From NCBI RefSeq assembly GCF_900114545.1, contig NZ_FOTI01000008.1, positions 1 to 64,000 on the forward strand: DNA of 64,000 nt, read 5' to 3'. The stretch is from Halanaerobium salsuginis (GTDB taxonomy: Bacteria; Bacillota; Halanaerobiia; Halanaerobiales; Halanaerobiaceae). Below are positions 3,145 to 16,720 of this stretch, piece after piece. The translations under genes and the position numbers were made by a program. The stretch's first letter is position 1. Each line of letters opens with the position of its first letter. The notes beneath the pieces are model-generated. The model saw only the letters and a program-made list of their open reading frames with translations. It ran no database searches and was not told the origin of the DNA.

Positions 3145-3207
3145 TTATAGATAAATAATAGTAAACTACTAAAGTTATTGAAAATCAAACTAAAAATTTA
3201 ATAAAAA

Positions 3208-3338
3208 TTCATCAAGAGTGGCGGAGGGACTGGCCCTGTGAAGCCCGGCAACCTACCATTAAGGTAAGGTGCCAAATCCTGCATTTCAAAGAAATGAAAG
3301 ATGAGAGGATTATTAAACCCTCTCAGGAGGGTTTATTT
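3208..3338 (+). promoter_or_regulatory. SAM-I (S-box) riboswitch with terminator platform
   Basis: The stretch 3211-3306 carries the S-box core: ATCAAGAGTGGCGGAGGGA, then CTGGCCC, GAAGCCCGGCAACC and AAGGTGCCAAATCCTGC, closing with AAAGATGAG. S-box RNAs bind S-adenosylmethionine and switch off downstream genes when it is plentiful. The switch can be read directly. TGAGAGG (3302-3308) on the 3' side of the closing helix can pair with CCTCTCA (3319-3325), the 5' arm of the following terminator. Ligand binding would hold the first segment in the aptamer and free the terminator. The controlled genes are the MetQ-like protein, the aminotransferase and the dehydrogenase. Confidence 0.95.
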
Positions 3339-3601: not shown

Positions 3602-4417
3602 ATGAAAACAAAAATTAAAGCATTTTTATTAAGTAGTGGAGTATTTTTAGCAGTCGCTTTTTATCTCTTACTTTCTTTGAATCCTGTTCAGGCAGCAGAT
3701 CCAGTCTTAACTGTAGGTGCAACCGCCGGCCCATTTGCTCAGATTCTAGAAGCTGTCAAGCCAGTTTTAAAAAGAGATGGTGTTGAGTTAAAAATTATTG
3801 AGTTTAGTGATTATGTAACTCCTAATCTAGCTTTAGCAGATGGCAGCCTTGATGCTAACACTTTTCAGCATATTCCATATTTTGAGCGTTTTAAAGCAGA
3901 TCGTAATTTAGATCTTGTTTCAGTAGCTAAAACAATTATTATTCCAATTGCAATTTACTCTGATAAATATAAATCATTAACAGAATTACCAGATGGTTCT
4001 ACAATAGCAATTCCTAATGATCCAACCAATGGGGGAAGAGCACTGCTTCTCTTTGAAAAGGCAGGCCTAATAAAATTGGCTGATTCAGCTGGTATAGCAG
4101 CTTCTGTAGTTGATATTGAATCTAATCCGCATAATTTTAACTTTTATGAAGTAGATGCAGCTCAAACTGCTCGAGTTATTCCAGATGTAGCAGCTGCTGC
4201 AGTTAATAGTAATTATGCTTTAGAATTAGGAATGAATCCACAGCAGGATTCGATTTATATTGAAGATGCCGATTCTCCTTATGTCTGCATTGTAGCGGTT
4301 AAGCGAGAAGATCAGGCTAATCAGTTGATTAATAAATTTATTAATGCTTATCATTCTGAAAAAGTTCGCGAATTTATTAAGACTGAATTTAACGGAGCTG
4401 TTATTCCAGCTTTTTAG
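3602..4417 (+). CDS. metQ: MetQ/NlpA-family methionine-binding protein
   Basis: This 271-residue NlpA-family protein should capture methionine outside the inner membrane for a MetNI importer. After the leader it shows typical MetQ blocks: VGATAGPFAQILE, the ALADGSLDANTFQHIPYF segment and IAIPNDPTNGGRALLL. The leader is a charged start, a long hydrophobic core and a VQA|A-type cleavage site at about residue 31. There is no lipobox cysteine, unlike most MetQ proteins, which are lipoproteins. That predicts a free periplasmic protein. MetN and MetI are not next to it and must be encoded elsewhere if the importer is complete. The upstream S-box supports methionine as ligand. It is followed by an aminotransferase 63 bases downstream. 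Confidence 0.88.
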   Translation: MKTKIKAFLLSSGVFLAVAFYLLLSLNPVQAADPVLTVGATAGPFAQILEAVKPVLKRDGVELKIIEFSDYVTPNLALADGSLDANTFQHIPYFERFKADRNLDLVSVAKTIIIPIAIYSDKYKSLTELPDGSTIAIPNDPTNGGRALLLFEKAGLIKLADSAGIAASVVDIESNPHNFNFYEVDAAQTARVIPDVAAAAVNSNYALELGMNPQQDSIYIEDADSPYVCIVAVKREDQANQLINKFINAYHSEKVREFIKTEFNGAVIPAF

Positions 4418-8129: not shown

Positions 8130-9077
8130 ATGGTTTCTGAAATAAAAACAAAAATGATGTCTAAAATTGGCTATACAACTTCAATGTTGGCCCGGGAATT
8201 TCTTTTAAAAAATAAAGGAGATAGAATTAATACAATTAGTGCTTATGCAGAAAATTTTAGTACTGGGCGTGGAACTGTTCAGGCAGCTATCTCTTTTTTA
8301 ACTGAACATCATGCTTTAGAGTTGGAATCAAAAGGTCATCTAGGCAGTTATATAATAAATCTAGATTATCAGCTGCTCTGGGAAATTGCTGATTTAGGTA
8401 TGATAATGGGATTATTGCCTTTACCTTATTCATTACGTTATGAAGGCCTGGCTACCGGTTTGAACCGGGAATTTAAACAGGCAGATTTTCAGTATAGTAT
8501 TGCCTATACAAGGGGTTCAGAAAAAAGAATAAATGTACTGCAGGAAGATAAATATGATTTTGTAATTCTATCCAAATTTGCTGCTAATTATTATCAAGCA
8601 GAGCTGCAGAATGAGCTTGATTTAGAAATTTTAATGGGTTTTGGTCCTGGCAGTTATCTTTCTAAACATGTAATAGTTTTTTCTGATCCAGCCAGTCAGC
8701 AAATTGAGTCTGGTATGAAGATTGGGCTTGATCCATCGTCAGCTGACCATAAAATTTTAACGGAGCTTGAATGTCAGGATAAAGATGTAGAGTTTGTAGA
8801 ATTAACTTATATGAAAATAATGGAGCATATTAGAAATAAGACAATTGATGCTGCAGTCTGGAATTATGATGAAATTAGTGAACTAGAAAATATTAATTTT
8901 TCTGATCTGCAGAATGAAAGCTCTTTAACAATGAATAAAGAAATTAGCACTGCAGTTATTCTGGTTAACAAAAACAGCAGGCTAATTAGGAGAATTCTCA
9001 ATAAAACAATTGATCCAGCTGAGGTAGTCAAACTGCAGCAGGCGGTATTAAAAAGACAGTTGATTCCAGAATATTAG
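8130..9077 (+). CDS. yhfZ: YhfZ-like transcriptional regulator
   Basis: This 315-residue protein matches the YhfZ type: an N-terminal winged-helix region (about 15-75, with GRGTVQAAISFL as the recognition helix area) joined to a C-terminal periplasmic-binding-protein-like effector domain. It heads a nine-gene unit that holds homologues of the E. coli yhf genes, and two dyads lie in its own leader. It probably controls the operon and itself in response to a pathway metabolite. The ligand is unknown. The start is the ATG after GAGGAGGG. Confidence 0.82.
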   Translation: MVSEIKTKMMSKIGYTTSMLAREFLLKNKGDRINTISAYAENFSTGRGTVQAAISFLTEHHALELESKGHLGSYIINLDYQLLWEIADLGMIMGLLPLPYSLRYEGLATGLNREFKQADFQYSIAYTRGSEKRINVLQEDKYDFVILSKFAANYYQAELQNELDLEILMGFGPGSYLSKHVIVFSDPASQQIESGMKIGLDPSSADHKILTELECQDKDVEFVELTYMKIMEHIRNKTIDAAVWNYDEISELENINFSDLQNESSLTMNKEISTAVILVNKNSRLIRRILNKTIDPAEVVKLQQAVLKRQLIPEY

Positions 9078-9087
9078 GAGGAATAAG

Positions 9088-9456
9088 ATGGATGCAAAGT
9101 TGAAAGAAAGACTTGAAATTTTAGTAGCAGGAGATTTGTTGACAGAAGAATTAAAAAATAAGTTAGAAAGTTTATTAACTGATTTTGAAGCTAGTTATCA
9201 GGTAGAATTAAATAATGATAATGCAGCTATGCTGGTCACCCATTTGCCAATGGCTTTAATGAGAATTAAGCGTGGCGAAGCAGTTGAAGACTTAAATGAA
9301 GCAGTTTTAACTGAATTGAAAGCAGAAGAATTTTATACAGATTGTTTAGATTTTATTGAGAAAATTGAAGTGGAAACAGGAATTGAAATACCAGAGGGAG
9401 AGAAAAACTATCTGGTACTTCATTTTTGTAATTTAATTAAACAGCAGAGGGGGTAA
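9088..9456 (+). CDS. yhfY: YhfY-like PRD-domain protein
   Basis: This 122-residue protein is all-helical and resembles a single PTS-regulation domain (PRD), as in E. coli YhfY. The segment with LVTHLPMALMRIKRGEAV near 49-66 is the typical PRD core, with a histidine at about 52. The EKNYLVLHFCNL part near 105-117 holds a second histidine. There is no DNA-binding domain. It sits 11 bases after yhfZ and probably works with it as a sensor subunit; how it senses is unknown. Confidence 0.78.
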   Translation: MDAKLKERLEILVAGDLLTEELKNKLESLLTDFEASYQVELNNDNAAMLVTHLPMALMRIKRGEAVEDLNEAVLTELKAEEFYTDCLDFIEKIEVETGIEIPEGEKNYLVLHFCNLIKQQRG

Positions 9457-9460
9457 TAAG

Positions 9461-9817
9461 ATGAAGATAGTAATTGGAGGTCAGGTTGATCGTCAAAAAA
9501 TTGCTGATAAAGTAGTAGAAATTACTGATTCTGAAGTTGAAGTCGAAGTTATGGATGATATTCAAGCAGCAACAGCTATTAAAACAGGAGCAGCTGATTA
9601 TTATTTTGGAGCTTGCCACACTGGTGGCGGTGGTGCTTTAGGTATGGCAATGGCTATTTTAACTAGTGCTAAATGTGCAACAATTTCGATGCCTGGTCGT
9701 GGACCTAAAGAAGAAAAAATAATTGAAGAATTAGAAGCTGGTAAGGTTGCTTTTGGTTTTACAGCTGATCACATTGATAAAGCTGTTACATTATTAATCA
9801 AAAATATTTTGAATTAG
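9461..9817 (+). CDS. yhfU: YhfU-like DUF2620 protein
   Basis: This 118-residue protein is a small DUF2620 protein. The most striking part is a glycine-rich, cysteine-containing loop, YYFGACHTGGGGALGMAMAIL (about residues 47-67), followed by TISMPGRG. The fold looks like alternating strands and helices, and the loop could bind a phosphate or nucleotide, but no activity is established. It is always seen beside YhfT, which suggests a cytoplasmic partner of that transporter. The ribosome site GAGGGGGT precedes the ATG. Confidence 0.8.
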   Translation: MKIVIGGQVDRQKIADKVVEITDSEVEVEVMDDIQAATAIKTGAADYYFGACHTGGGGALGMAMAILTSAKCATISMPGRGPKEEKIIEELEAGKVAFGFTADHIDKAVTLLIKNILN

Positions 9818-9888
9818 GTTTTACTTGAGCTAAAAATATTACTTAGATAAGAAAGCTTGCTCAATTAATTAAACAAGGGGTGGAAAAA

Positions 9889-11160
9889 ATGCAGACAATT
9901 TTAATGGCCTTAATGGGTGGACTGGCAGCTATTTTGACTAATAAGGGGATAGCAGTGTTTAATGATGGCCTGCGGCCAATTATTCCAGAAAATGTTGAAG
10001 GTAGGATGAGCAAAAGAGACTTAGCGGCAACTTCTTTTGCAATGAGCTTTGGTCTGGTAATTGGATTTGGAATTCCATTTAGTCTTTCAGCTAATATTCT
10101 TTTGATACATAGTATTTTATTAGGAACTGATGTCATAGGGACCTGGGCACCAAAAGGAAAAAAAGGAGTCCTTACTGCTGGTGTAGTTGGAGCTCTCTAT
10201 GGTCTAGGTTTAATGTATGGTCTTGGTTTTATTGTAGATGTTTTTGCTAAATTACCAGTTAACTTTCTTGATGATTTAGGTAAGGTTGGTAATCCAATTG
10301 TAGTAGCTTTTGCTGCCTTCCCTGCTCTGGCAACAGCTTATCAATTTGGTGCTAAACGAGGTGTTTTTAATCTGCTTGCAGCAGGTATTGTTCGTCAGCT
10401 GGCAGTTAGATTTAGTCCTCTGCAGCTAGGAGAAATCCAGGTTGCAATTAATCCAGAAGGAATGGCACTTATTACTGGAATGGTAATCTTACTAATCTTT
10501 GCTGCTGGAGAAAAAGGAAAGAGTAGTGGAGTTAGTGATCTAGTTTCTGTTTTTAGCGAAAGAGTTGCCAGGATTAAAAAGAATTTACCTCTGCTGGCAA
10601 TAATGGGAGCACTTGTTTCAGCTGCGACTGCCTATCAAATTCTGGCTGGTGATCCAATTTCTCTAAACTTAGTTAAAGAGGGAGATTTAAATGCAGCGGC
10701 TTTAGCAGCTCTGGCAAGAGGAATTGGTTTTATACCTCTAATTGCTACTACTGCAATTGCAACAGGTGTGTATAGTCCAGTCGGTATGACTTTTATTTTT
10801 GCTGCAGCTTTATTTTTAAAGAATCCCCTTCTGGCAGCTTTAGCTGGTGCGATTATTATTTCTTTAGAAATTCTTTTTCTGGATAATATGGCTGGTCTGC
10901 TTGACAAGTTTCCCGGTATTAAAAAAGCAGGTGATAATATCAGGACTGCTATGAGTAAGGTGCTAGAAATTGCTCTTTTAGTTGGTGGTATGAATGCAGC
11001 TAATGCTATCTTACCTGGCTTTGGCTTCTTCTTTGTTGCTGGTCTCTATATTTTAAATGAAATTGCTGATCAGCCTATAGTCAGGATGGCAGTTGGTCCT
11101 ACCGCCGCAATTTTGGTTGGTATAATTGCTAATATTTTTGCTATCTTTTCTTTAGTATAG
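9889..11160 (+). CDS. yhfT: YhfT-like multi-pass membrane transporter
   Basis: This roughly 423-residue protein has about ten or more hydrophobic spans and matches the YhfT family of inner-membrane transporters of unknown substrate. Recognisable parts are an N-terminal LMALMGGLAAILTNKGIAVF, the ATSFAMSFGLVIGFGIPFS stretch and a GIATTAIATGVYSP-like segment in the second half. A GTG at 9880 is in frame, but the ATG at 9889 fits the GGGGTGG ribosome site better and was chosen. It probably imports the compound that the following enzymes break down. Confidence 0.78.
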   Translation: MQTILMALMGGLAAILTNKGIAVFNDGLRPIIPENVEGRMSKRDLAATSFAMSFGLVIGFGIPFSLSANILLIHSILLGTDVIGTWAPKGKKGVLTAGVVGALYGLGLMYGLGFIVDVFAKLPVNFLDDLGKVGNPIVVAFAAFPALATAYQFGAKRGVFNLLAAGIVRQLAVRFSPLQLGEIQVAINPEGMALITGMVILLIFAAGEKGKSSGVSDLVSVFSERVARIKKNLPLLAIMGALVSAATAYQILAGDPISLNLVKEGDLNAAALAALARGIGFIPLIATTAIATGVYSPVGMTFIFAAALFLKNPLLAALAGAIIISLEILFLDNMAGLLDKFPGIKKAGDNIRTAMSKVLEIALLVGGMNAANAILPGFGFFFVAGLYILNEIADQPIVRMAVGPTAAILVGIIANIFAIFSLV

Positions 11161-11193: not shown

Positions 11194-12303
11194 ATGAAAG
11201 ATCTGTCAGAAAAATTATTAACTAAATTTAATAATGCTCTCCAGACAAATTCTGCTGCAGTGGTCTATCATAATCGGAATTTAAAACCAAAATTAATAAA
11301 TCTTTATAATACAGATAAAGAGCATTATTTATTTGGAGTCAAAAATACTGCCCAAATTCCAATTGATTTAGTAAAAAAGTTAAGTCAGGATAATAAATTC
11401 TTTTTACACACAATTGATAAGATGGCCTGTGGTGGACGCGCAGTTGACCCTGATTTGATAAATCCACTAACTTTACGTGTAATGACAGGTTCTAGTAGTG
11501 GTGGCTGTATAAATATTCTGGCGGGAATAAATGACTTAGCAATAGGCACAGATGGAGGCGGCTCGGTTTTAGCTCCTGCTGCTTCCACAGCTTTATTTGC
11601 AATTATGGCGAAAGGTTTAGGATTAAAAGGTCAACAGCAGAAAATATCTACTGATGAGCTTAAATTTGTACCTGGAATTGGATTTATTGCTGCTGAATAT
11701 CAAATTTGTCTAGCTGCTGTAAAAAAGTTACTTTCTTTTCCGGAACTGCCAGAGTTAAACAGTAATTTAACTATTGCTCTTCCGCAGCCGGGAAGCTGTA
11801 CTTTACCTGATGGCCAGGATATGGCAGAGTTAGTTGCTTTAGCTGAACCTAATCTAGCAAAATTTAAACTAAATAGAATTGACTTAACTGGTGCAGCAGA
11901 TAGAAAAACTGCAATTAGAATTATTGAAGCTGCTTTTGCAGCAGGAGCTGAAATTATTATTACAGCAGAAGGGCCGGTAGATTATTATGGTTATGGAGAT
12001 TCAGTTCATGGCAGCTGGCAGATTGGAAAAAGCAGCCAGCAGCGCAGTGGTAAATACTTGATGCGGGCAGCTAACCTAGTTAATGCAACTGCATTGGCTT
12101 TGCCAACTAACAAGCTGGCAACAGCTTTAATTTTAATTGCTCGTCCTGGCTTAGAATCTGGCCTAAAATTACTGAGCTTAGGTCTTAAACTGCAGAATTT
12201 ATTTAAACGTCCTGAACTTTTTAAACGATATTTTATTAACCAGCAGAGAAATGAAAAGGAAAATTTTTTAGGAGCTGATAATTTTGATCAATACTTTGGC
12301 TAA
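11194..12303 (+). CDS. Compact amidase-signature-family enzyme
   Basis: This 369-residue protein shows the amidase-signature core in shortened form. The Ser-cisSer-Lys triad can be placed: K50 in LFGVKNT, S101 in TGSSSGG, and the nucleophile S124 in GTDGGGSVLAPA. Typical family members run to 450-500 residues. Here the region before the serine-rich motif and the C-terminal part are both trimmed. The enzyme should hydrolyse an amide bond, substrate unknown. The E. coli yhf cluster has no such gene, yet here it lies between yhfT and php in a tight co-directional run, with its end overlapping php by 20 bases. It is therefore probably a working step of the same pathway. Confidence 0.75.
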   Translation: MKDLSEKLLTKFNNALQTNSAAVVYHNRNLKPKLINLYNTDKEHYLFGVKNTAQIPIDLVKKLSQDNKFFLHTIDKMACGGRAVDPDLINPLTLRVMTGSSSGGCINILAGINDLAIGTDGGGSVLAPAASTALFAIMAKGLGLKGQQQKISTDELKFVPGIGFIAAEYQICLAAVKKLLSFPELPELNSNLTIALPQPGSCTLPDGQDMAELVALAEPNLAKFKLNRIDLTGAADRKTAIRIIEAAFAAGAEIIITAEGPVDYYGYGDSVHGSWQIGKSSQQRSGKYLMRAANLVNATALALPTNKLATALILIARPGLESGLKLLSLGLKLQNLFKRPELFKRYFINQQRNEKENFLGADNFDQYFG

Positions 12304-13180
12304 ACAAATAACTCCTTCTCAAATGGGAATTACTATGTATCATGAGCATTTGACGATTGACCTGTCCCGGCAAAAGTCAGATTCTGATGCTAAATTAACT
12401 GGAGATTTATTACTCAAAGATTTATCTAGAATCAAGGAATTTGGAGTTAAAACTATTATTGAATTGAGTAATATTGGGATGGGTAGAAATTTAAAAAGAA
12501 TGCAAGAACTGGCTGCTAAATTTGACTTTAATATTATTGCCAGTACAGGTTTTTATAAAGAGCCTTATTTACCAGAAATTTTTTATCAAAAAAATGCTGA
12601 TCAACTTACCAGTCTAATGGTTTCTGAAATTAAAAATGGTATTGAAGGAACAAATATTAAGGCAGGAGTTATTGGTGAAATAGGAAGCAGTAAAGAATTT
12701 ACTCCAGCAGAAAAAAAATTATTTAAAGCAGCAGCACAGGCACAACAGCAAACAGGAGTGCCAATAATTACTCATCTTACTCTGGGAAGTTGTGGCTTAG
12801 AACAATTAGAAATTTTAACTGCTAATGGAGCTGACTTAAATAAGGTAGCTTTTAGTCATCTTGATTTAGCAGAAGATATTGACTATATTTTAAAAATTGC
12901 TGAACGAGGTGTTTTTATCGGGATTGATACAATTGGTAAGCTCAAATATCAGACTGATCAGTTTAGAGTAAAAATTGTACAAGAATTAATCAAAGCAGGT
13001 TTTAGTCAGCAAATCTTGCTTTCGACTGATCTAACCCGCTTATCTCATCTCACCGCAAATGGTGGACATGGGTATCAGTATTTATTTGATAGTTTTATTC
13101 CACAACTTGAAGCAGCTGGTTTGAGTAAAGTAGAAATTGAAGCCATAATTACTGATAATCCAGCGCGGCTATTTTCTTGA
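12284..13180 (+). CDS. php: Phosphotriesterase-homology protein Php (YhfV)
   Basis: This 298-residue TIM-barrel metallohydrolase belongs to the phosphotriesterase homology group. Expected metal ligands are visible: H20 and H22 in MYHEHL, a glutamate in GVIGEIG near 126 in place of the carboxylated lysine of true phosphotriesterases, histidines in IITHL and FSHLDL, and an aspartate in LSTDL near 251. The natural substrate of Php proteins is unknown, with a lactone or ester more likely than a phosphotriester. The start is a TTG with GGAG nine bases ahead, overlapping the amidase gene, which suggests coupled translation. Confidence 0.85.
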   Translation: MINTLAKQITPSQMGITMYHEHLTIDLSRQKSDSDAKLTGDLLLKDLSRIKEFGVKTIIELSNIGMGRNLKRMQELAAKFDFNIIASTGFYKEPYLPEIFYQKNADQLTSLMVSEIKNGIEGTNIKAGVIGEIGSSKEFTPAEKKLFKAAAQAQQQTGVPIITHLTLGSCGLEQLEILTANGADLNKVAFSHLDLAEDIDYILKIAERGVFIGIDTIGKLKYQTDQFRVKIVQELIKAGFSQQILLSTDLTRLSHLTANGGHGYQYLFDSFIPQLEAAGLSKVEIEAIITDNPARLFS

Positions 13181-13194
13181 TTGGAGGTTAAAAG

Positions 13195-14292
13195 ATGAAA
13201 ACTTATCCACTGCAGTCATTAACTATTAATGAAGCAGTTCAATTACAATATCAATTAGTTGATACAATTCAAAATGAATTTAAAGGAACAGAACTTCTAA
13301 ACGGAGGTGACTATGGGCTTGATCCTGATCTAAAGCAGCCTCGTTTTACTCATAAAGTAGAACAAGTATTGGCTGATTTTTTTGATGTAGAACAGGCTCT
13401 TTTAGTTAGGGGAGCAGGAACAGGTGCTTTAAGATCTTTTTTTAATGCTAATCTTAAAGTAAATGAATCTGTATTAGTCCATGCTGCTCCAATTTATCCA
13501 ACAACTAAAGTAACTCTAGATAGTATGGGCTTAGCAATTATTAAATTTGATTTTAATCAACTCCAGAGTACTGCTGATATAAAATTATTGCCTGATAAAG
13601 ATTTTGCTGCTATTTTAGTTCAACACAGTCGGCAGCGAATTGATGATCACTATGATTTTAATAAAGTAATTAAAATTTTAAAAACAAAATATCCAGCTAT
13701 ACCAATAATTACTGATGATAATTATGCTGCTCTAAAAGTTAAAAAAATTGGGGTTCAGGCAGGAGCTGACCTAAGTACATTTTCTCTATTTAAACTGCAG
13801 GGACCTGCTGGAATAGGCCTTTTATTAGGGAAAAATAAATATCTAACTGCTGTTAAGAAAATAAACTATTCTGGAGGTAGTCAGGTGCAGGGACCAGAAG
13901 CTATGGCTGCTTTACGGGCAATGGTAACTGCTCCAGTAATTCTTGCAGTTCAGGCCAAAAGTGTAGCTGAGGTAAATGAACGTTTAAATCAAGGAGAAAT
14001 ATCAGCAGTAGAAAGTTCTTTTATTGCTAATGCTCAATCCAAAGTAGTGATTATGAAATTTAAACAGGCAATTGCTAAAGAATTTTTGGCTAAAGTTAAT
14101 CAATATGGAGGAGTTCCTTACCCAGTTGGTTCAGAATCTTGTTATGAGATTGGAGCTATGTTTTACAGAATATCAGGAACATTTCGAGAGCAGGATCCAG
14201 CCGCAGAAAATTATTTAGTTAGAATTAATCCAATGCGGGCTGGAGCCGATACAATACTGAAAATTATTAAAAAAACTTTAGCCAATTTATAA
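13195..14292 (+). CDS. yhfS: YhfS-like PLP-dependent aminotransferase
   Basis: This 365-residue protein is a fold-type I PLP enzyme of the YhfS group. It has the RGAGTGALRSFF cofactor-loop motif near 71-82, a cofactor aspartate in PIITDDNYAAL near 177, and the candidate Schiff-base lysine in TFSLFKLQGPAGIG near 199. The region LNGGDYGLDPDLKQPRFTHK near the start is typical of this branch. The reaction is not known for any member to my knowledge. It lies 14 bases after php. Confidence 0.8.
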   Translation: MKTYPLQSLTINEAVQLQYQLVDTIQNEFKGTELLNGGDYGLDPDLKQPRFTHKVEQVLADFFDVEQALLVRGAGTGALRSFFNANLKVNESVLVHAAPIYPTTKVTLDSMGLAIIKFDFNQLQSTADIKLLPDKDFAAILVQHSRQRIDDHYDFNKVIKILKTKYPAIPIITDDNYAALKVKKIGVQAGADLSTFSLFKLQGPAGIGLLLGKNKYLTAVKKINYSGGSQVQGPEAMAALRAMVTAPVILAVQAKSVAEVNERLNQGEISAVESSFIANAQSKVVIMKFKQAIAKEFLAKVNQYGGVPYPVGSESCYEIGAMFYRISGTFREQDPAAENYLVRINPMRAGADTILKIIKKTLANL

Positions 14293-14306
14293 AGGTAGTG
14301 ATAATT

Positions 14307-15500
14307 ATGTTTTTAGAGAAAATGCAGCAGCGAAATCCAGAATTAATTGAGACAGCTTTCTATTTACACCGCAAAGAGATACTGGAAGCAAATACATATA
14401 TTTTAGACCTTGACCAGATTAAGGCCAATGCAGCCTTAATGGCAAAAGAAGCAGCTCACTATAATTTCAAACTTTATTTTATGACTAAGCAGTTGGGACG
14501 TAATCCATTAGTTGCTAAAGCAATATCTGCAGCAGGGATTGAAAAAGCAGTTGCTGTTGATCCCTGGGAAGCCAGAACTCTGGCCCAGGCTGGTATTAAA
14601 TTGGGAAATGTTGGTCATTTAGTTCAAGTTCCAGATACTATGCTGGCTGAGATAATTTTTTATCAACCGGAAATTATGACAGTATATAGTCTTGCTAAGG
14701 CAAAAAGAATTTCCGAAATTGCTCTGGCTCAGGGAAAAGTGCAGCCAATTATGTTAAGAATATACAGTCCAGATTCTTTTAATTATCAGGGGCAGATGGG
14801 AGGAATTAGCTTAACTGAGCTGGATAAGTTTGTAACAGAAATTATTAAATTAAAAGGAATAACTTTAGCCGGTTTAACTGCTTTCCCCTGTTTATTATTT
14901 GATTACGAAACTAAAGTAATTAAAACTACACCTAATTTAGAATTAGTAGTTAAAACAGCAGCTGATTTAGCTCAAAAATACGGAATTAAAATTAAACAGC
15001 TAAATACTCCAAGTGTGACCTGTCAGAAAACTATTAGTATGTTAGCTGAAGTTGGTGCTACTCATGGCGAACCAGGTCATGGCTTAACCGGAACAACCCC
15101 CTATCATGCTTATGCTGATCAGGGAGAAAAGCCAGCTTTACTCTATCTTTCGGAAGTGTCCCATCTTTTAGATCAGCAGGCCTATATTTTTGGAGGAGGA
15201 TTTTATAGCCGTTCTCATTTAAAATATGCTTTAGCTGCTGGAGATAACTATCAGGTAGAATCAAAACTATATTCAGCCAGTCAGCCGGCTGCTGAGATGA
15301 TAGATTATTATGCAGCTCTAGATAATAGCTCAGCTAAGCTTAAAGTTGGGGATACAGCTTTACTGGCTTTTCGAACTCAAATTTTTGTTACTAGAGCTCA
15401 GGTAGCAGTTGTAAGTGGAATCCAGACTGGTAAATTAAAATTACATGGTATTTATAATAGTCAGGGCCAGCTGCTATCTAAAAAGGAGGAACTACTATGA
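14307..15500 (+). CDS. yhfX: YhfX-like alanine-racemase-fold PLP protein
   Basis: This 397-residue protein has an N-terminal PLP barrel of the alanine racemase type followed by a beta-rich C-terminal domain. The likely PLP lysine is in YFMTKQLGRNP near residue 53, after the LDLDQIKANAALM strand-helix typical of the fold. It is longer than YggS-type proteins and belongs with E. coli YhfX. It may act on a D-amino acid or a related amine. A GTG at 14298 is in frame, but the ATG at 14307 has better spacing from AAAGG. Its last codons overlap yhfW by four bases (ATGA). Confidence 0.8.
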   Translation: MFLEKMQQRNPELIETAFYLHRKEILEANTYILDLDQIKANAALMAKEAAHYNFKLYFMTKQLGRNPLVAKAISAAGIEKAVAVDPWEARTLAQAGIKLGNVGHLVQVPDTMLAEIIFYQPEIMTVYSLAKAKRISEIALAQGKVQPIMLRIYSPDSFNYQGQMGGISLTELDKFVTEIIKLKGITLAGLTAFPCLLFDYETKVIKTTPNLELVVKTAADLAQKYGIKIKQLNTPSVTCQKTISMLAEVGATHGEPGHGLTGTTPYHAYADQGEKPALLYLSEVSHLLDQQAYIFGGGFYSRSHLKYALAAGDNYQVESKLYSASQPAAEMIDYYAALDNSSAKLKVGDTALLAFRTQIFVTRAQVAVVSGIQTGKLKLHGIYNSQGQLLSKKEELL

Positions 15501-16720
15501 GCAAAAGAGCTATTTTATTAATCTTAGATGGATTAGGAATTGGAGCAATGGATGATCTTGCAGAACAGCAACGTCTGCAGGATAGGACAGCAAATACTTT
15601 AGCTAATGTTTTAACAAGTAATCCAGATTTAGAATTACCCAATTTAAATAAATTGGGTCTGAAAGCAGCGGCTAGTTTAACTGAAAGCAAGCCGCTAGCA
15701 GCTGAAATTAATGCTGCTTATAGTCGAGCCAGACTATCCTATGATGGAGCAGATACCTTTATGGGACATCAGGAAATTATGGGTTCAAGTCCAACTCATC
15801 CTAAAATTCAGCCCTTTAAAGAAGTTTATCACGAGGTCGCAGCTGCTTTGATAAAAGCAGGTTATCAAGTAACAGTTCCAGATCAGAATCACCCTTATCT
15901 ATTAGTAAATGAAAAGATAGTTGTTGCAGATAATATCGAAGCTGATTATGGACAGATTTATAATGTTAGTGCCTCTCTGGATGAGATTAATTTTGATACT
16001 GTGCTGGCAGTTGGTAAAACAGTTCGAGCTGCAGTAAAGGTTAGTCGAATTATTGCTCTAGCTGGTAAAAATACAACTACTAAGCAAATTATAGATAGTA
16101 TTGAAAGCCCAAATTCTCAAATAACAGGAGTTAATTCAACAGCTTCTGGAGTCTATGGTGAAGGTTATCAGGTAATTCATTTAGGTTATGGAATTGATCA
16201 TCGTAAGCAAATAAGTTCTATTCTGGCTGAACAGGATTGTGATGTTAGATTGATTGGTAAAGTACAGGATGTTATTCACTGTCCACAAGCTCGCGAAAAA
16301 TTACCAGCAGTAGCAACTGAACAGGTTCTATCTTTAATGTTAAGCAGGTTAGAAGAAGTTGAAAGTGGTTTAATAGCAGTTAATGTTCAAGAAACAGATT
16401 TAGCTGGACATCAACAAGATGCAGCTGAATATGGTCGAGTCTTAAAATTAGTTGATTCCAAAATACCAGATATTTTGTCCCAACTAAAAGAGGATGATTT
16501 ACTGATTATTACAGCTGATCATGGAGATGATCCAACTGTTGGTCATAGTCATCATACAAGAGAAGAAGTTCCTCTTTTAGTTTATCAACCTGGAATTAAA
16601 GCTCAAAAATTTGATCCACGGGCCAGTCTAGCTGACATAGCGGCAACAATTGCTGATTATCTAACTGTTAAGGCACCGGAAAGTGGAGAAAGTTTTCTGG
16701 CAGAGCTTCAACTTAGTTGA
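15497..16720 (+). CDS. yhfW: YhfW-like phosphopentomutase/alkaline-phosphatase-superfamily enzyme
   Basis: This 407-residue metalloenzyme resembles phosphopentomutase (DeoB). It starts with the metal-binding strand ILLILDGLGIGAMDD (aspartate near 11) and carries GADTFMGHQEIMGSSP near 83-98, where the threonine is in the position phosphorylated in DeoB. It ends with the ligand set ITADHGDDPTVGHSHHTREEVP near 335-356. It may interconvert phosphate esters of the pathway sugar or acid. It is translationally coupled to yhfX and is the last gene of the yhf-type operon. Confidence 0.82.
   Translation: MSKRAILLILDGLGIGAMDDLAEQQRLQDRTANTLANVLTSNPDLELPNLNKLGLKAAASLTESKPLAAEINAAYSRARLSYDGADTFMGHQEIMGSSPTHPKIQPFKEVYHEVAAALIKAGYQVTVPDQNHPYLLVNEKIVVADNIEADYGQIYNVSASLDEINFDTVLAVGKTVRAAVKVSRIIALAGKNTTTKQIIDSIESPNSQITGVNSTASGVYGEGYQVIHLGYGIDHRKQISSILAEQDCDVRLIGKVQDVIHCPQAREKLPAVATEQVLSLMLSRLEEVESGLIAVNVQETDLAGHQQDAAEYGRVLKLVDSKIPDILSQLKEDDLLIITADHGDDPTVGHSHHTREEVPLLVYQPGIKAQKFDPRASLADIAATIADYLTVKAPESGESFLAELQLS

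Follow-up and report, generated by a model that had tools for sequence, protein, structure and literature searches.

A compact amidase-signature protein of yhf-type operons and its possible role in the use of peptidoglycan-derived compounds

Background

Members of the amidase-signature (AS) superfamily are defined by a Ser/Gly-rich signature with a Ser-cisSer-Lys catalytic triad (PMC8393822), and both are found in the compact protein described here. Its gene lies in a cluster corresponding to the Escherichia coli yhfSTU-php-yhfWXYZ genes, which are an orphan system: several of the Pfam families concerned are named "unknown function" and the structures of two of the enzymes (4kbx and 4j8l) were deposited as uncharacterized proteins. 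All the eight genes of the E. coli cluster are also present in the window, the whole stretch of 64,000 nucleotides from Halanaerobium salsuginis that was analysed. The E. coli cluster differs in gene order and, as an earlier note on this DNA had pointed out, K-12 has no amidase gene from yhfS to yhfZ. The sequence, predicted structure, distribution and gene neighbourhood of the protein were examined and are discussed below with respect to its probable function.

Methods

The name AMD is used here for the yhf-linked compact AS protein. Members were sought by a pattern scan of one genome per species (84,980 species), and co-occurrence was assessed in an independent, even sample of the phylum comprising 399 genomes. 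AlphaFold2 models were compared with the PDB using Foldseek, and Pfam and NCBIfam models were used for family assignment. The profile aligned to Arabidopsis fatty acid amide hydrolase (FAAH; 6dhv) was built from 53 AMD members.

Results and discussion

The amidase gene and its operon

The yhf set of the window is complete and is arranged in the order Z, Y, U, T, AMD, Php, S, X, W (Table 1). The AMD gene, an open reading frame of 369 codons with an ATG start, is sited between yhfT and php and begins 33 bp downstream of the end of yhfT. It overlaps php by 20 bp, with the TTG start of php and the AGGAG sequence nine bases 5' of it both falling within the AMD gene; this start and the overlap are kept in three Halanaerobium relatives. 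The compact amidase overlapping php that the earlier note had described is therefore confirmed. A chance reading frame is ruled out by homologues of 30-64% identity in more than 50 genomes, and a local insertion or artefact by the distribution of AMD across yhf operons. An ordinary SAM riboswitch upstream of a MetQ-like lipoprotein gene was also observed in the window.

Table 1. Positions of the features in the window
Feature	Position	Strand	Basis
SAM riboswitch	3206..3307		RF00162, 91.5 bits
MetQ-like lipoprotein gene	3602..4417		sequence-based name
yhfZ, GntR-like regulator	8130..9077	+	NCBIfam NF041241 YhfZ_full, 368.9 bits, above cut-off
yhfY, stand-alone PRD domain	9088..9456	+	PF00874
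yhfU, DUF2620	9461..9817	+	PF10941
yhfT, polytopic membrane protein, putative transporter	9880..11160	+	PF10797, 584.9 bits; AlphaFold2 pLDDT 88.6
AMD	11194..12303	+	PF01425; AS fold; at least 53 scan matches, all listed ones yhf-linked
Catalytic Lys50 codon	11341..11343	+	invariant, 48/48
Ser100 codon, assigned cis-Ser	11491..11493	+	invariant; pairs with AtFAAH S281; 24 residues before S124 in 48/48
Ser124 codon, assigned nucleophile	11563..11565	+	invariant, 48/48; pairs with AtFAAH S305
AGGAG, likely php ribosome-binding site, inside AMD gene	12270..12274	+	sequence
php (yhfV), phosphotriesterase family, TTG start	12284..13180	+	PF02126; best PDB match E. coli Php 1bf6/4lef
yhfS, PLP fold-type I enzyme	13195..14292	+	PF22475; PDB 4j8l YhfS
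yhfX, PLP enzyme, alanine-racemase fold	14298..15500	+	PF21279/PF01168; PDB 4kbx YhfX
yhfW, phosphopentomutase-like metalloenzyme	15497..16720	+	NF009049, 529.4 bits, above cut-off

Fold and subfamily

The structure prediction proposed in the earlier note yields an AS fold (AlphaFold2 pLDDT 93, pTM 0.92). The top Foldseek matches in the PDB are all AS enzymes (malonamidase E2, allophanate hydrolase and GatA, E ~1e-12), at TM 0.5-0.66 and 12-18% identity, and favour no AS subfamily. The Pfam Amidase model PF01425 scores 31.3 bits against a gathering score of 27, over residues 90-135 only, and is detected at E<=0.001 in 50 of 53 AMD members. Assignment to a named subfamily is ruled out, every NCBIfam cut-off being missed: the best score among the AS subfamily models (GatA, allophanate hydrolase, indoleacetamide hydrolase and other PRK amidases) is 30.5 bits against cut-offs of at least 391.

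Phylogenetic analysis of 26 AMD rows and 15 canonical AS proteins places AMD on one side of a branch with SH-aLRT support of 100, with long separating branches. When the 399 genomes were searched, the weakest full-length AMD match had E 1e-106, and other AS proteins followed only from 3e-9. Judged from its sequence, AMD is a new and separate AS subfamily, characterised by its own clade, a shortened segment between Lys and cis-Ser and the loss of the Arg after the nucleophile; the clade and the gap in E-values bear out the earlier suggestion that the shortened fold may define such a group.

Active site

The AMD profile aligns without gaps to Arabidopsis FAAH, S100 being paired with S281, which we take to be the cis-Ser of plant FAAH, and S124 with S305, whose role as the nucleophile is consistent with the S305A entry in the PDB. 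The canonical spacing of 24 residues between cis-Ser and nucleophile, seen for S281-S305 in AtFAAH and for S131-S155 in malonamidase E2 (the triad of which was read from the PDB mutants K62A, S131A and S155C), is found for S100-S124 in 48/48 AMD members, while S101 lies 23 residues from S124. K50, S100 and S124 are invariant in these 48 members, of which 38 have Ser and 10 have Thr at position 101. S101 is therefore ruled out as the cis-Ser by its spacing, by the Thr in 10/48 and by the FAAH alignment, and S100 is favoured. Thus, the earlier assignment of K50, S101 and S124 stands for K50 and S124, both of which the alignment places in triad register, and is off by one for the cis-Ser.

The segment K50-S100 is 49-50 residues long, compared with 69 for its counterpart in malonamidase E2, and this accounts for part of the compaction of AMD. 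The Arg that usually follows the AS nucleophile is Leu or Ile in AMD (S-V-L/I-x-P-A). T119, D120 and the GGG loop preceding the nucleophile are likewise invariant in 48/48 members from four phyla, and this invariance, together with that of the triad, points to selection on catalysis. Other invariant polar residues include T73, D75, R82, R237, E259, D263, K287 and N294; because many of the invariant residues are charged (R82, D85, R237, E259, D263, K287), a polar or charged ligand is suggested. AMD is probably a catalytically competent amidase with the triad Lys50/cis-Ser100/Ser124. No signal peptide was seen in the AMD sequence, and the protein is predicted to be cytosolic.

Distribution and association with yhf operons

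At least 53 AMD members were identified in the species scan, in Bacillota, Coriobacteriia, Fusobacteriota and Treponema. The search for members with the same neighbours proposed earlier found yhf genes beside AMD in 53/53 among the matches listed, incomplete contigs included, and none solely elsewhere, with scan patterns derived from yhf-linked members, which distant unlinked ones could escape. AMD is present in 8 of the 11 YhfT-bearing genomes and in 0 of the 388 YhfT-less genomes of the 399-genome sample (Fisher p 1e-14, a statistic that ignores kinship). The two sets are identical in the 12 Halanaerobium genomes, AMD being found in 4/4 genomes with YhfT and 0/8 without. The order of the yhf genes is variable, yet AMD stays in the cluster. 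By its distribution, AMD is dedicated to the yhf pathway.

Operons found via YhfT or by a genus search contain AMD in 16 of 21 cases; one of the five operons lacking it (L156) lies on a contig that ends within the operon. A Vibrio plasmid carries a yhf operon without AMD, and a Cetobacterium megaplasmid one with it. In the tree of YhfT, operons with AMD are found in each of the two deep groups and those without it are scattered, so that AMD was probably present ancestrally, E. coli having a reduced form. The earlier description of the amidase as extra to the operon did not hold: AMD is common in yhf operons and probably an ancestral component of them, the tree favouring its loss in E. coli and in the Vibrio plasmid.

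Some individual loci deserve mention. YhfS too went undetected in the Vibrio halioticoli plasmid cluster lacking AMD (L138). The genes for AMD, YhfT, YhfX and YhfY are interrupted in L155 (L062 is apparently the same record), and murQ is split in L152; intact copies of these genes are present in relatives.

Peptidoglycan and amino-sugar genes near yhf operons

The families most often directly flanking yhf operons are Glucosamine_iso (9), beta-lactamase/PBP (5) and SIS (3). A NagB-like gene lies directly 3' of yhfW on the same strand, with a gap of -16 to 121 bp, at nine loci from about five lineages (L038, L044, L045, L046, L064, L070, L083, L086 and L089), and three of the four Glucosamine_iso neighbours tested exceed the TIGR00502 cut-off. 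PBP4B-like genes, scoring below the model's cut-off, occur at eight yhf loci; yfeW, the E. coli member of this family, belongs to murQP-yfeW.

MurQ, above all the cut-offs, flanks the yhf operon in L033 and L151, with MurP and MupG alongside. In one Halanaerobium genome (G005) MurR-MupG-MurP-MurQ adjoins yhfW and a NagZ-like gene lies beyond; next to yhfZ is an MR/MLE enzyme that is matched best, though below cut-off, by the L-Ala-D/L-Glu epimerase model. The order murP-mupG-murQ-yhfZ...W is found in G461 and G463; in the latter, murR and EIIA precede this array and a PBP4B relative follows it. In a Sporomusaceae MAG (L052) the genes after yhfW are one for a GntR-like regulator (sequence-based name), murP, mupG and murQ. 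Clusters of murQ-murP-mupG(-murR) beside yhf operons were also noted in L152 and L174; in L174, which is without AMD, murQ lies ~7 kb downstream of yhfW.

Searches of 75 yhf loci gave 35 matches to 12 E. coli murein and amino-sugar genes against 16 to 36 other E. coli genes. MurQ exceeds its cut-off in 10 of the 11 YhfT-bearing genomes and in 77 of the other 388 genomes of the sample (p 1.4e-6, ignoring kinship). One genome with yhf and AMD (G136) has no MurQ above the cut-off.

Other neighbours were observed beside yhf operons that lack AMD or are rearranged: an APH-type phosphotransferase encoded immediately 5' of yhfZ (L042:5760-6770) and Cof-type HAD phosphatases (L034:11796-12620, with a second one in L090). 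These may be alternative entry enzymes.

Proposed pathway and alternative explanations

We consider it rather probable that AMD is a yhf-dedicated, cytosolic and competent amidase in a pathway that degrades a peptidoglycan-derived amino-sugar/peptide compound. The compound would enter the cell, probably via YhfT/YhfU. AMD and Php would constitute a variable hydrolytic layer that removes an acyl/amide bond and a bond of the ester/lactone type. The freed amino compound would then be processed by the conserved core, in which YhfS and YhfX are PLP enzymes and YhfW is phosphomutase-like. The product would then join amino-sugar catabolism (MurQ/NagA/NagB) where those genes adjoin the operon. We infer the peptidoglycan origin of the substrate, the order of these steps and the cleavage of the amide by AMD; the origin appears probable because mur and nag neighbours recur and MurQ co-occurs with YhfT. 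By its gene neighbourhood the substrate can be narrowed beyond the earlier reading, towards peptidoglycan and amino-sugar compounds. Two kinds of bond come into question with similar likelihood: that of an N-acyl group attached to an amino sugar, and a peptide, lactyl or carboxamide bond within a muropeptide. A de-N-acylase would be in keeping with a NagB gene that has no adjacent NagA, and an amide of the peptide type with the neighbours that resemble Ala-Glu epimerase and PBP4B; either bond would free an amine, which would explain the two PLP enzymes downstream.

The recurrence of NagB, PBP4B-like genes and MurQ/MurP/MupG in several separate lineages, often right after yhfW, and the co-occurrence of YhfT and MurQ across genomes have to be weighed against the majority of yhf loci, which show no mur or nag gene in the flank examined, the presence of unrelated genes among the yhf neighbours, and the E. 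coli cluster, which adjoins the fructoselysine genes frl, away from murQ. The latter observations, and core enzymes that are PLP- and phosphomutase-like, would suit a yhf-dedicated AMD whose substrate is not cell-wall-derived (examples being N-acylated amino acids, lactams, N-acyl lactones and other amide natural products), the nag and mur neighbours then reflecting shared catabolic islands or regulation; this we regard as less likely. Some AS-fold proteins have lost hydrolysis and act as non-catalytic partners, and AMD, which adjoins Php in 45 and YhfT in 37 of 69 loci and has lost the usual Arg after the nucleophile, might similarly serve YhfT or Php as a scaffold or regulator. In [Clostridium] citroniae, YhfT and AMD form a single in-frame ORF of 768 aa (L078:8579-10885), which may be a true fusion or the result of a lost stop codon or a sequencing error. 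The invariance across four phyla of the triad, T119, D120 and the GGG loop renders such a non-catalytic role very improbable.

The earlier note had also held that the imported compound contains an amide that is cleaved early. PLP enzymes need a free amine, and an amidase ahead of the two PLP enzymes would supply it; an early step is modestly supported by the gene adjacency, by the YhfT-AMD fusion, the sole fusion seen, and by a weak association of YhfT divergence with AMD loss. A divergent YhfT is seen in 5 of 7 operons without AMD and in 10 of 63 with it (Fisher p 0.004, kinship being ignored), while the identities of YhfS, YhfX and YhfW are even and unaffected by the absence of AMD. On the other side, the divergence of AMD correlates with that of YhfS (0.65), YhfX (0.68) and YhfW (0.65) no less strongly than with that of YhfT (0.59) and singles out no partner, as might be expected if AMD acted late, on the product of YhfS/X/W; we hold this late action to be improbable. 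Early cleavage of the amide in an imported compound is only plausible on these sequence comparisons, and YhfT is assumed to be the importer. The YhfT model (pLDDT 88.6) is a confident one and shows a polytopic membrane protein. Its comparison with the PDB gave no Foldseek match at E<=0.001 (TM up to ~0.2), and an attempt to read its transporter class from the fold failed; YhfT may represent a transporter fold new to the PDB.

Extending the preferred reading of a peptidoglycan-derived substrate, we propose tentatively, at somewhat less than even confidence, that the yhf operon encodes a hitherto unrecognised route by which amino-sugar/peptide compounds from peptidoglycan are catabolised. Its ancestral form would employ a new class of AS enzyme, lost from E. 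coli, that cuts an amide of the cell-wall compound (as a muropeptide amidase or an amino-sugar de-N-acylase). If true, cell-wall recycling or scavenging would gain a new branch in gut and anaerobic bacteria, and the AS fold a new class of substrate. A dedicated amidase together with the recurrent MurNAc and amino-sugar neighbours provides a short list of testable substrates for the yhf pathway. A literature search, with most subscription journals outside its reach, found nothing on yhf function, on MurNAc use involving an AS amidase or on a link between yhf and MurNAc; the literature using these gene names mostly concerns unrelated genes of Bacillus subtilis or Staphylococcus aureus.

Comparison with known systems

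To our knowledge, the known steps of MurNAc catabolism offer no obvious place for YhfW, which is phosphopentomutase-like, or for the Php family. The E. coli murQP-yfeW genes include neither AMD nor yhf genes, and the same is true of the MurNAc operon of S. aureus, mupG-murQ-murP-murR (PMC6262408). Genes of the MurNAc operon adjoin yhf operons in several lineages, whereas in H. salsuginis murQ-murP-mupG-murR (murP, mupG and murR named by likeness) is present on another contig, unlinked to yhf. AMD resembles malonamidase E2, GatA, allophanate hydrolase and FAAH in its fold, Ser/Gly-rich signature, Lys-cisSer-Ser triad and 24-residue spacing, and its GTDGGGS loop is as in plant FAAH. It differs from the canonical AS enzymes in the length of its members (327-407 aa) and in having Leu or Ile for the Arg of the GSxR/GSxxR motif.
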